Below are positions 38,991 to 43,799 of a stretch of 64,000 nucleotides of DNA, piece after piece. The translations under genes and the position numbers were made by a program. Numbering within the stretch: the first letter of the stretch is position 1; each line of letters starts with the position of its first letter. Under the pieces are notes generated by a model. It was not told where the DNA came from. It saw only the letters and a list, made by a program, of their open reading frames with translations, and did no database searches. Source of the stretch: Limimaricola cinnabarinus (lineage in GTDB: Bacteria > Pseudomonadota > Alphaproteobacteria > Rhodobacterales > Rhodobacteraceae); contig NZ_KZ304963.1 of assembly GCF_002723615.1 (NCBI RefSeq), positions 1 through 64,000 on the forward strand, given 5' to 3'.

Positions 38991-39782
38991 TCAGTGACCG
39001 AGGATCTGGCTGAGGAACAGCTTGGTCCGGTCGGACTGGGGGCTGTTGAAGAAGGCTTCCGGCTCGTTCTGCTCGACGATCTGGCCCTGATCCATGAAGA
39101 TCACCCGGTTGGCGACCTGCCGCGCGAAGCCCATCTCGTGGGTCACGCAGAGCATGGTCATGCCCTCCTCGGCGAGCTCGATCATGGTGTCGAGCACCTC
39201 CTTGATCATCTCGGGATCGAGCGCGGAGGTCGGCTCGTCGAAGAGCATGATCCGCGGCTTCATGCACAGCGAGCGCGCGATGGCCACGCGCTGCTGCTGC
39301 CCGCCCGAGAGCTGGCCGGGATATTTGAGCGCCTGATCGGGGATCTTCACCTTTTCGAGGAAATGCATCGCGATCTCCTCGGCCTCGCGCTTGGGCGTCT
39401 TGCGGACCCAGATCGGCGCGAGGGTGCAGTTCTCGAGGATGGTCAGATGCGGAAACAGGTTGAAGTGCTGAAAGCACATGCCGACCTCGGAGCGGATCTT
39501 GTCGATGTTCTTCAGATCCGAGGTCAGCTCGATCCCGTCGACGACGATCCGGCCCGACTGGTGCTCCTCCAGCCGGTTGATGCAGCGGATCAGCGTCGAC
39601 TTGCCCGAGCCCGAGGGCCCGCAGATCACGATGCGTTCGCCGCGATAGACGGTGAGGTCGATGTCGCGCAGCACGTGGAACGCGCCGTACCACTTGTTCA
39701 TGTTCGAGATTTCGATCGCGACCTCGTCCGAGATCTGCATCTGGCTGCGGTCGATGGTGCGGGCGGCGGTGGTGTCGGTCAT
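38991..39782 (-). CDS. aapP: General L-amino-acid ABC transporter, ATP-binding protein
   Basis: 263-residue ATPase of the GlnQ/AapP/BztD type. Walker [11 protein letters not shown]-loop FQHFNLFPH, intact signature [15 protein letters not shown], Walker [14 protein letters not shown] and switch histidine in CVTHEMGF. The ATG at 39782 is preceded by GGAGG at 5 bases; a GTG one codon upstream is the alternative. Last gene of the aapJQMP operon. It drives the AapQ/AapM permease. Confidence 0.96.
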
Positions 39783-39792
39783 CACACCCTCC

Positions 39793-41109
39793 TCAGTTGT
39801 GGCCGCGCTGGAGCTTCTTCTCCAGATACAGCGAATAGCGGGACATGCTGAAGCAGCAGATGAAGAACAGCAGGCCGATGAAGACGAAAAGCTCCCAGTA
39901 GATGCCGTTCCATTCGGTCGAGGCGCGGATCGCGTTCGACAGGCCGATCGGGTCCAGAAGGCCGATGAACACCACCAGCGTCGTGTCCTTGAACAGGCCG
40001 ATGAAGGTGTTGACGATGCCGGGGATCGAGATCTTGAGCGCCTGCGGCAGGATGATCAGCCGCATCGACTGCCAGTAGGAGAGGCCGAGGCTGTCGGCCC
40101 CCTCATACTGGCCCTTGGGCAGCGCCGCGAGACCGCCGCGCACCACTTCGGCGATATAGGCCGCGGCGAAGAGCGTCACCATGATGATGACCCGCAGCAT
40201 AAGGTCGAAATTGGTCCCCGGCGGCAAAAAGTAGTTCAGCAGCAAGGAGGCGGTGAACAGCCAGACGATCAGCGGCACGCCGCGGATGATCTCGATGAAG
40301 CCCACGGAGATCTTGTTGATGATGAAGAGGTCCGACTGCCGGCCCAGCGCCAAGAGGATGCCCAAGGGAAGCGACAGGATGATGCCCGCGATGCCGATGA
40401 TGAAGGACAGCATGAAGCCGCCGAAATCCTGGCTCGGCACGTATTCGATGCCGAGCGCCAGCACCTGCTCCAGCTCGCGCGCCAGCGGCCCGGCGGTGTA
40501 GAGCCAGTAGACGATCGGCAGCAATGCGGCGACGATGGAGGCGACGAGCGTGCCCGCCGGCCCCGAAAGCGCCCGCCACGCGGCCCAGCCCAGCACGAAG
40601 CCGAAGGCGATGGAGACCGGGAACCAGACCGAGCCGCCCCAGAGCAGCCAGAACATGACGAAGGGCGACAGGGCCGTGAACCACAGCGCCCGGCGCGGCA
40701 CATGGGCAAAGAGCACCGGCGCGATGGCCGCGAGGAAGATCACCAGCGCCAGCACCGGGCGCCAGTAAAGCTCGCGCGGGTAGAAGCCGAACATCAGCTG
40801 CTGCCAGCGGTCGCCCAGCACCGCCCAACAGGCGGCGGAAATGCCCTCGGGCAGGGTGGCGTCGCGGATCTCGCGGCATTCCGAGAGCGAGCCCGCGTTC
40901 CAGATGCCGCGGAAGACCCATGGCATGGTATGCGCCAGCGCCCACCAGATCACGTAGAGCGAGACGAGGGTGAGCAGGATGTTGAGCCAGCCCGAGAACA
41001 GGTTCTCGCGCATCCAGAGCAGCGCGTCGCGGTTGCCGACCGGCGGCTCGGCCTGTGGCAGCATGGTCTCGCGCACATAGGAGACGGTCTGCGCATGCGT
41101 ATCCGACAT
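39793..41109 (-). CDS. aapM: General L-amino-acid ABC transporter, permease AapM/BztC
   Basis: 438-residue permease of the HisMQ branch. Several N-terminal hydrophobic segments lie before the conserved transport domain (about residues 235-430). The EAA loop is [21 protein letters not shown] periplasmic stretch with two Cys (SECREI and ACWAVLG) lies between the first helices. AapM pairs with AapQ. Its start is one base after the aapQ stop. Confidence 0.95.
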
Positions 41110-41110
41110 C

Positions 41111-42643
41111 TCAGCGCTCCTTCAGCTTCACGCGGGAATTGTAGAGGTTCATGGCGCTGGAGATCACGAGGCTGGTGACGAGGTAGAACAGCCCCAGAAG
41201 CAGCATCCCCTCCAGCTCCTTGCCGGTCTGGTTGATGGTGATGCCCCCCAGCGTCGAGCGCACATCCATGTAGCCCACCGCGATCGCCAGCGACGAGTTC
41301 TTGGTGAGGTTCAGATATTGCGAGATCATCGGCGGGATGATGACGCGCAGCGCCTGCGGCAGGATGACGAGGCGCATGGTGCGCGAGGGCTTGATGCCCA
41401 GCGCGTAGGCCGCCTCGGTCTGGCCCTTGGAGACCGCGAGGATGCCGCCGCGCACGTTCTCGGCGATGAAGGCGCCGGTGTAGAGCGACAGCGCCAGCCA
41501 CAGCGCGATCAGCGAATTGCGAAGCTGCAACCCGCCCTCGAAGTTGAAGCCGCCCAGCACCGGGCGCTCGAACTCGACCGGCAGGCCGCGCGCGATGTCG
41601 TCCGACAGCGCCAGCGCGCCGGCGGGCAGCGTCGCGGGATCGACCGAGCCCGGCAGCGACATGATGTTGCAGCGCCCCGCTTCGGCGGCGGCGATGGCGG
41701 CGGCGTTGTCTTCCACGGCGACGAGGTTGAAGCGCGCCTCATTGCTTCGCATCAGGCGGCGCAGGTTCAAGGCCTCGGTCGAGCCGGGCACGGCGCAGAC
41801 ATTCATGCCCTGCGCGCCCGGCCCGGCGGCATAATCGGCGAGGCTCATCTGCGCCTCGGCCCCGGTGACATAGACCGGCTGACGCTCGCGGCCCATGGTG
41901 GCCGACAGCACGAGAAAGGCCAGCGCCGTGGGCAGGATCAGGAGCCCCAGCGTGCCCCAGCCGATCGGCAGGATGCGGCCCGTCTGCTCCTGCACCTTGT
42001 GGGCGTGGCGGCGCCAGGCCCAGATCGCCACCAGCGACAGCAGGAAGACGGCAAGCAGGATGCCCGCCCCCGCGCCCCAATGCGGCGCCGGGATGAAGAC
42101 GCCGCGATTGGTGATCGCGACGCTGTCGCCGAAGATCATCGAGGCACCGCCGCCCTCGCGGAAATCGCGCGGCTGCGGGGTCGATTCGGTCATCAGCGCG
42201 AAGATCAGCAGGATCCACAGCAGCAGCGGGATGTTGCGGAAGCCCTCGACATAGACCGCCATCAGCTTGGCGACGATCCAGTTCTTGGACAGGCGCAGCA
42301 CGCCCGCCAGAACGCCGAGGATGGTCGCAAGCGTGCAGCCCAGCACCGCGACGAGCAGCGTGTTGAGGATGCCCACGAGGGCGGCGCGGCCATGGGTCGA
42401 GCCGCTGTCATAGTCGATCAGGCGCTGGTTGATGTCATATCCCGCGCGCTGGCCGAGAAAGCCGAAATCGAAATCCTTGCCGAGCGCGGAGAGGTTGGCG
42501 ATCGTGTTCGACACCAGCCAGCTCAGCCCCAGCATGAGGGCGATGAAGGCGATCACCTGAATGGTCAGGGAGCGGTAGCGGGTGTCGTAGATGAGCTGGC
42601 TAGGCCGAAACCCGGCCTTCGGAACATCCGAGGTCGTTGTCAT
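41111..42643 (-). CDS. aapQ: General L-amino-acid ABC transporter, permease AapQ/BztB with SBP-like insertion
   Basis: 510 residues, about 80-110 longer than the AapQ and BztB lengths I recall (about 400 and 430). TM1 is at about 26-48, and the transport domain is split. Its first part is at about 88-150 and its second at about 375-500, with the EAA loop KGQTEAAYALGIKPSRTMRL. Between them are two more hydrophobic segments (about 190-210 and 227-247) and an extracytoplasmic insertion at about 250-362. Residues 281-327 of this insertion align without gaps to residues 145-191 of the binding protein AapJ, sharing VC, a Gly/Thr-rich ligand loop ending LNL, VE-NA and AG-C. This is an unusual permease-embedded binding-domain fragment. 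Confidence 0.94.
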   Translation of the reverse strand: MTTTSDVPKAGFRPSQLIYDTRYRSLTIQVIAFIALMLGLSWLVSNTIANLSALGKDFDFGFLGQRAGYDINQRLIDYDSGSTHGRAALVGILNTLLVAVLGCTLATILGVLAGVLRLSKNWIVAKLMAVYVEGFRNIPLLLWILLIFALMTESTPQPRDFREGGGASMIFGDSVAITNRGVFIPAPHWGAGAGILLAVFLLSLVAIWAWRRHAHKVQEQTGRILPIGWGTLGLLILPTALAFLVLSATMGRERQPVYVTGAEAQMSLADYAAGPGAQGMNVCAVPGSTEALNLRRLMRSNEARFNLVAVEDNAAAIAAAEAGRCNIMSLPGSVDPATLPAGALALSDDIARGLPVEFERPVLGGFNFEGGLQLRNSLIALWLALSLYTGAFIAENVRGGILAVSKGQTEAAYALGIKPSRTMRLVILPQALRVIIPPMISQYLNLTKNSSLAIAVGYMDVRSTLGGITINQTGKELEGMLLLGLFYLVTSLVISSAMNLYNSRVKLKER

Positions 42644-42779: not shown

Positions 42780-43799
42780 TTAGCGGAAGGGCGGCGCGTA
42801 GATCAGGCCGCCATTGGTCCACTGCGCGTTGAGACCGCGCGCGAGGCCGATGGGGGTGTTCTCGCCGATGTTCTTCTCGAAGATCTCGCCGTAATTGCCG
42901 CCGGCGGCGATCGCCCTCTTGGCCCAGTCGTTCTCGAGGCCGATCATCGCGCCAAGCTCGCCCTCGGTGCCCAGAAGGCGGTTCACTTCGGGGTTGGTGC
43001 CCGGGGCGGAGGCCAGCTCGTTGACATTGGCCGAGGTCACGCCGAACTCCTCGGCGGCGATCAGCGCGTTGAGCGTCCAGCGCACGATGTCGCCCCACTC
43101 GTTGTCGCCATGGCGCACCAGCGGGCCGAGCGGCTCCTTGGAGATGATCTCGGGCAGGATCACGTGATCGCCCGGGTTCTCGAAGGTGGCGCGGGTCGCG
43201 GCGAGGCCGGAGGCGTCGGTGGTGTAGGCGTCGCAGGCCCCGGCGAGGTATTGCTGCTGGGCCTCGGCGTTGGTCTCGACCGGCACGGGCTCGTAGCTGA
43301 TGTTGTTGTTGCGGAAGAAGTCCGCGAGGTTCAGCTCGGTGGTGGTGCCGGTCTGGATGCAGACGGTCGCGCCGTCGAGATCCTTGGCCGAGGAGACGCC
43401 CAGCTCGGTCGGCACGATGAAGCCCTGGCCGTCATAATAGTTGACGCCGGCGAAATCGAACTTGAGGTCGGTGTCGCGCGAGAAGGTCCAGGTGGTGTTG
43501 CGCGCCAGCATGTCGATCTCGCCCGAGGCGAGCGCGGTAAAGCGGGTCTGGCCGGTGGTGGGCACGAAGTTGACGGCCGTGGGATCGCCCAGCACGGCGG
43601 CGGCGACGGCGCGGCAGACGGAGACGTCGAAGCCCTCCCAGACGCCATTGGCATCGGGGGCGCCGAAGCCGGCCAGGCCGGTCACCACGCCGCAGTTCAG
43701 CTCGCCGCGCTCCTTGACGTCGTCGAGCGTGGCGGCTTGCGTCGCTCCGGCGGCGAGACCGGTGACGGTCAGGGCGCCGAAGAGTACGGATTTCTTCAT
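42780..43799 (-). CDS. aapJ: General L-amino-acid ABC transporter, binding protein
   Basis: 339 residues. The signal peptide ends near residue 22 (ATQA-ATLDD). Family 3 solute-binding fold with CGVVTGLAGFGAPDANGVWEG split over about 36-56. It also has VCIQTGTTTELNL (146-158), the loop that in this family contacts the ligand's alpha-carboxylate, and a paired Cys at about 189. It delivers a broad range of L-amino acids, or glutamate/glutamine/aspartate/asparagine if it is more BztA-like. AGGAAGAGG precedes the ATG. Confidence 0.96.
   Translation of the reverse strand: MKKSVLFGALTVTGLAAGATQAATLDDVKERGELNCGVVTGLAGFGAPDANGVWEGFDVSVCRAVAAAVLGDPTAVNFVPTTGQTRFTALASGEIDMLARNTTWTFSRDTDLKFDFAGVNYYDGQGFIVPTELGVSSAKDLDGATVCIQTGTTTELNLADFFRNNNISYEPVPVETNAEAQQQYLAGACDAYTTDASGLAATRATFENPGDHVILPEIISKEPLGPLVRHGDNEWGDIVRWTLNALIAAEEFGVTSANVNELASAPGTNPEVNRLLGTEGELGAMIGLENDWAKRAIAAGGNYGEIFEKNIGENTPIGLARGLNAQWTNGGLIYAPPFR

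Follow-up and report, generated by a model that had tools for sequence, protein, structure and literature searches.

What is a piece of a solute-binding protein doing inside the permease of the same importer? The question is raised by an amino-acid transporter of Limimaricola cinnabarinus encoded in the window, that is, the whole stretch of 64,000 nucleotides that was analysed (contig NZ_KZ304963.1, positions 1 to 64,000). The first-pass annotation of this DNA proposed that the permease AapQ carries half of a binding domain resembling its own binding protein AapJ, and sequence, profiles, predicted fold and fold search all support this proposal.

The aap operon

The minus strand of the window encodes an aapJQMP-type operon. 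It is formed by aapJ (42780-43799, minus strand), encoding a family 3 binding protein of 339 aa; aapQ (41111-42643, minus strand), an open frame whose translation is an amino-acid ABC importer permease of 510 aa; aapM (39793-41109, minus strand), encoding a second permease of 438 aa with a BPD_transp_1 match of 84.8 bits; and the ATPase frame aapP (38991-39785, minus strand), assigned by its place and by the recognisable Walker A and signature motifs of its open frame. AapJ matches SBP_bac_3 with 52.1 bits (cut-off 26.4) and its best PDB sequence match is 4z9n (E 9.3e-122), the AapJ homologue from Brucella ovis. By curated models and predicted fold AapQ is a polar amino-acid ABC importer permease of the AapQ / HisM type: it scores 60 bits with BPD_transp_1 and 53 bits with HEQRo_perm_3TM, above the curated cut-offs of 26.4 and 42.2, and its full AlphaFold model (mean pLDDT 74) matches the solved amino-acid ABC permease 4yms_D with Z 20.9, aligning 210 of 215 residues over the model range 56-506. 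The closest named relative found was Limimaricola hongkongensis, with 92% AapQ identity. AapM has longer forms of 497-500 aa in L072 and other loci, with about 50 extra residues after GFYP and a shorter extra piece later, as aligned for L072 only.

Place and predicted fold of the insert

Alignment with AapQs of 402-410 aa, where the insert is missing at the corresponding loop, places about 106 extra residues (247-352) in the TM5-TM6 loop of AapQ, between the end of TM5 and the GxPxxxExPxLxGFNF loop that precedes TM6. The inserted domain corresponds to 41588-41905 (minus strand). An extra segment had previously been delimited at residues 250-362 (41558-41896, minus strand); it is present, and its bounds shift because residues 353-362 are ordinary loop. 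The positive-inside rule, a general rule for membrane protein topology, together with an RRHAHK stretch in the TM4-TM5 loop ahead of the insert, suggests that the domain faces the periplasm.

The insert modelled alone by AlphaFold had a mean pLDDT of 79 and the order E-H-H-E-H-E-H-E-E. In the full AapQ model it forms a separate domain between helices 227-249 and 376-403, with blocks of pLDDT 72-87. All nine Foldseek matches with E <=0.001 were amino-acid-binding proteins or sensors that incorporate such a protein, with 4z9n at the top. In VIA, residues 7-105 of the insert model aligned to 4z9n 103-202 with Z 10.1 (93 residues, 2.6 A), and the top row was Peb1A (Z 10.8). A fold unrelated to a binding-protein lobe had been named as grounds for rejecting the proposal, and the predicted fold is that of lobe 2. 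HisG (Z 10.3) and LysR effector domains scored about equally to the binding proteins, so the lobe fold alone is no proof of homology.

Homology to lobe 2 of AapJ

Lobe 2 of AapJ comprises approximately residues 121-232 (43104-43439, minus strand; the bounds are an estimate). AapQ 281-327 aligns without gaps to AapJ 145-191 with 18 identities in 47 positions, where about 17 had been counted by eye in the earlier annotation. With the AapQ loop as query and AapJ as subject, blastp returned an ungapped match of AapQ 278-333 to AapJ 142-197 (41645-41812, minus strand; 36% identity, E 1.6e-7). The local score of the loop against AapJ was 80, and 3000 residue shuffles of the loop gave a mean of 33.5 (SD 5.4), with a single outlier (81) reaching the observed score. 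AapQ with the loop masked scored 30 against AapJ, below the shuffle mean.

The profile alignment that had been recommended as a check gave the same answer. Aligned by hhalign, the profile of 19 distinct inserts matched that of 94 AapJ rows with score 51.2, E 1.9e-7 and a probability of 94%, whereas 200 column-shuffled AapJ profiles gave a best score of 23.2 and a best probability of 4.45%. AapJ columns outside lobe 2 stayed within the shuffle range against the insert profile (score 22.0, probability 4.4%). The sequence match spans AapJ 123-202, and the predicted fold widens this span to approximately the whole of lobe 2.

The genome contains six SBP_bac_3 places, AapJ included. Searched against it, the insert profile recovered the insert, then AapJ (E 6.1e-7) and then nothing better than 0.25; the other five SBP_bac_3 places gave no match at E <=10. 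Since only AapJ was matched among these places, the source of the insert was AapJ-like, and not any binding protein. Among PDB sequences 4z9n came first (E 2.2e-5, in register), followed by a designed protein (E 0.046). In Pfam, AapQ has no SBP_bac_3 row at E <=1, HMMER filters partly losing such weak matches, and for lack of such a reported match ordinary annotation misses the insert.

It is barely credible that the insert is an unrelated alpha/beta domain merely resembling a lobe. The Z values of the HisG and LysR effector domains and the one shuffle in 3000 that equalled the pairwise score speak for non-homology, but the sequence match within the genome is to AapJ alone among the SBP_bac_3 places, 4z9n leads the PDB rows and two Cys residues lie in register. 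Chance likeness was ruled out by the profile nulls, the within-genome specificity and the PDB ranking, that single shuffle notwithstanding. On sequence and predicted structure we conclude that the AapQ insert is homologous to lobe 2 of AapJ. It has in common with AapJ, SBP_bac_3 and 4z9n the lobe-2 fold, the Cys pair and the in-register sequence; it differs from the AapJ relatives in comprising lobe 2 only, one lobe instead of the two hinged lobes of family 3 solute-binding proteins, in the loss of the anchor Asp and in the missing SBP_bac_3 row.

Residues kept and lost

The insert has a pair of conserved Cys residues spaced 42 residues apart: Cys283 (codon 41795-41797, minus strand), aligned to AapJ Cys147, and Cys325 (codon 41669-41671, minus strand), aligned to AapJ Cys189. 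Every one of the 23 distinct inserts and of the 94 AapJ rows has Cys at both positions, and the pair likely forms a disulfide in the insert. The Gly two positions before the second Cys is found in 22 of 23 inserts, and Asn157 and Arg163 (AapJ numbers) are each kept in 17 of 23. The matched stretch contains 33 AapJ positions conserved at >=97%, of which 8 are kept in most inserts. Glu155 of AapJ is kept in none.

Pro331 (codon 41651-41653, minus strand) is aligned to AapJ Asp195, which we take, from related proteins, to be the amino-acid anchor that holds the ligand amino group. All 94 AapJ rows have Asp at this position, whereas only one of the 23 inserts, that of L122, does. The L122 / L149 (G258) insert with its Asp could be a less changed form. 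The loss of the anchor Asp and of a partner lobe means that the insert most likely does not bind substrate; from these residues a canonical ligand site is not expected and a working one is unlikely. The low-affinity vestibule site that had been put forward, a lobe still holding amino acids near the channel mouth, is weakened by this and is now very improbable. The Gly/Thr loop is partly kept, with Thr153 in 15 of 23 inserts and Gly151 in 12 of the 19 that have a letter there, but Thr154 is kept in 1 of 23, Gln149 in none of the 20 with a letter, Asp195 in L122 only, and the second lobe needed to close the site is absent.

Occurrence among relatives

In the family survey AapQ was identified in 183 of 198 genomes at E 1e-60, with at least 4 insert carriers among the matches listed. 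Of the best 80 named loci, 17 encode an AapQ of 508-596 aa; these loci were picked by likeness to the AapQ of the window and are thus biased towards carriers. In the order survey the insert profile matched 246 of 292 genomes at E 0.001. All 20 of the non-insert matches that were fetched fall in AapJ frames, and the insert proper (E <1e-20) was identified in 10 of the 292 genomes. The distribution of the insert is patchy. In the class survey the only match at E 1e-9 was the window's own genome (1 of 385), so a wider home in the class is unsupported, although a strongly changed insert could miss that strict limit. Spread by plasmids is likewise unsupported: one of 72,556 plasmid records, from Rhizobium, matched AapQ at E 1e-60, over residues 1-246.

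Four genera (g183, g186, g199 and g203) contain both carrier and non-carrier species, and in g203 three forms of AapQ were identified, of 404, 479 and 512 aa. Among loci named Limimaricola the insert is present in 4 of 5, the exception being L058. Other additions to AapQ were observed as well. In L026, L081 and L111 (AapQ of 473-479 aa) a Gly/Ala/Ser-rich low-complexity insert lies between TM3 and TM4, and the lobe domain is absent. In L015 / L064 (AapQ of 596 aa) a further charged, coiled-coil-like piece of about 80 residues lies inside the insert after the second Cys. The contigs of L060 and L061 are filed as Deltaproteobacteria bins; their aapQ groups with Rhodobacteraceae and they are possibly misbinned.

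Capture, loss and exchange

In the lobe tree (23 inserts and 24 AapJ lobes) all inserts fall on one side, with 100/100 support and a branch of 3.1 changes per column. The tree has no outgroup and several long branches, and every fourth distinct AapJ lobe was taken; a single origin is for these reasons compatible with it, not proven. Recent copying from the present aapJ was dismissed on identity levels: 36% between insert and AapJ, against 96-99% for the AapJ lobe 2 in the eight pairs compared. The flank tree of AapQ, built from 97 rows of which 19 are carriers and with its bootstrap still unsettled, requires 11 label changes, at least 7 of them forced by starred branches.

The variable part of AapQ is a central cassette (41588-42118, minus strand; residues approximately 176-352) comprising TM4, the cytoplasmic loop, TM5 and the lobe domain. 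Two Amylibacter bins, OFTM131 (L041), which has the insert, and OFTM397 (L110), which lacks it, encode sister AapQs in which the cassette diverges as a unit. On the N side these two are 100% (1-60), 93% (61-120) and 80% (121-175) identical, and on the C side 91% (363-420) and 100% (421-510); between them, identity is 36% in the TM4 segment (191-215) and 48% in the TM5 segment (216-247). Compared with the carrier L042, L041 is 88% identical in the TM4 segment and 91% in the TM5 segment, and 75-82% in the N-terminal part. The mosaic is likewise present in L041 at third codon positions. Between L041 and L110 these agree at 60-96% in the flanks, except for 44% and 36% in the comparison windows at 151 and 355, and at 32-44% over 176-250, while between L041 and L042 they agree at 36-60% before 176 and 56-72% over 176-250. 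This one pair shows, at the level of sequence, an insert apparently exchanged together with TM4-TM5; since both members are binned from metagenomes, a chimeric assembly could also produce the pattern.

The nearest TM4-TM5 segment (190-245) comes from another carrier in 17 of 23 carriers. For the N-terminal part (1-176) this holds in 9 of 23 and for the C-terminal part (375-510) in 10 of 23, each with 2 ties. When the five Limimaricola and two Wenxinia-type rows are removed, the counts are 10, 2 and 3 of 16 for TM4-TM5, N-terminal and C-terminal parts respectively. These counts fit a cassette moving with TM4-TM5, although the identities often differ little and shared ancestry is possible. TM4-TM5 is the least conserved of the compared segments, also in AapQs without the insert.

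Selection and co-variation

The dN/dS of the insert region was 0.15-0.75 and below 1 in all nine pairs (ratios of printed dN and dS; the region was taken as approximately 250-362, thus including ten ordinary residues). The rest of AapQ had 0.08-0.21 in the nine pairs and lobe 2 of AapJ 0.02-0.11 in the eight pairs with AapJ. The dN of the insert exceeded that of the rest of AapQ 2.8-6.4 times in 7 of 9 pairs, with ratios of 1.9 and 1.0 in the other two. None of the 10 full insert matches contained a stop in a search reading through stops. Judged by these ratios, the insert is constrained, but loosely.

Of the 196 variable columns in AapJ, a single one, at residue 13 of the signal peptide, co-varied with carrying the insert above the shuffled 95% maximum, and none did so in mature AapJ; in AapM none of 338 columns passed. 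As no mature AapJ or AapM column follows the insert, there is no sign of co-adaptation, and co-adaptation of these proteins with the insert was set aside as unsupported.

Possible roles of the insert

Site, fold and loss of ligand residues point, through the predicted model, to an accessory lobe facing docked AapJ. The reading we tentatively prefer, at somewhat less than an even chance, is that the insert is a degenerate, domesticated AapJ-type pseudo-lobe, captured once, that modulates the docking of AapJ. A lobe 2 of this type was probably captured a single time, perhaps from the neighbouring aapJ, into the TM5-TM6 loop. Losses and transfers would have followed, at least one of the transfers by recombination of a block that includes TM4-TM5. 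The captured lobe is predicted to fold as an alpha/beta domain, likely with a disulfide, on the membrane side where AapJ docks. There it would touch docked AapJ and may tune either its residence or the strength with which it triggers the transporter. Points against a modulating role are that the insert is missing in most relatives, that no column of mature AapJ or AapM co-varies with it and that it evolves fast.

The same observations feed the main competitor, a tolerated ornament: a near-neutral lobe that folds only to spare the permease and is gained and lost by recombination and deletion. This is a real possibility, if a doubtful one, and almost as likely as docking modulation. It would account for the patchy presence (10 of 292 genomes), the label changes on the flank tree (11, at least 7 forced), the dN/dS of up to 0.75, the lack of co-variation in mature AapJ and AapM and the Limimaricola locus without an insert, L058. 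It sits less well with the fact that, despite deep divergence, none of the 23 distinct inserts has lost either Cys, with dN/dS below 1 in 9 of 9 pairs and with the insert being kept in 4 of 5 loci named Limimaricola. A periplasmic plug or competitor, capping the outer mouth of AapQ-AapM or the docking surface when AapJ is absent and lowering idle ATP use, is distinctly unlikely; the loop lies directly before helix 376-403 and resembles a lobe of the docking protein, from which such a role might be guessed, but only 8 of the 33 AapJ positions under strong conservation persist in the majority of inserts.

Comparison with known systems

In GlnPQ and OpuA, binding-protein sequence is covalently part of the permease, as in AapQ. 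The fused domains of GlnPQ and OpuA are complete, two-lobed, working and placed at the chain end, whereas AapQ has a single degenerate lobe within a loop and the operon still encodes AapJ as a free protein; the insert, a single lobe, is thus not a complete binding domain of that kind. MalF P2 has a different origin from the AapQ insert and lies between other helices. In the permease of that type I importer it is an additional domain on the periplasmic side, as the insert putatively is in AapQ, and in simulations it behaves as a rigid body in its motion around MalE (PMC8134467). MalE fused to MalF is transport-competent according to PMC7756565, whose reference list includes Licht et al. 2019; there a binding protein is joined to a transmembrane subunit, as AapQ has a binding-protein lobe. 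By analogy we think that the AapQ insert may be comparable to MalF P2 in role, presumably through contact with AapJ, and not in origin. Fusions of whole binding domains to permeases are known, and searches of open-access papers turned up no single binding-protein lobe inside a permease loop.

From this case, one half of a binding protein seems able to exist as a domain in its own right. Relatives with and without the insert are natural pairs for testing what an accessory domain in the periplasm does to a type I importer. A more specific picture, which we consider unlikely, is that the outer AapQ hairpin, made of TM4, TM5 and the loop joining them, is a recombining cassette, one form of which is a domesticated half AapJ acting as a false partner lobe to docked AapJ and thereby setting the response of the transporter. 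If true, the permease would carry its regulator within itself, in the form of a mimic of the protein that delivers its ligand.
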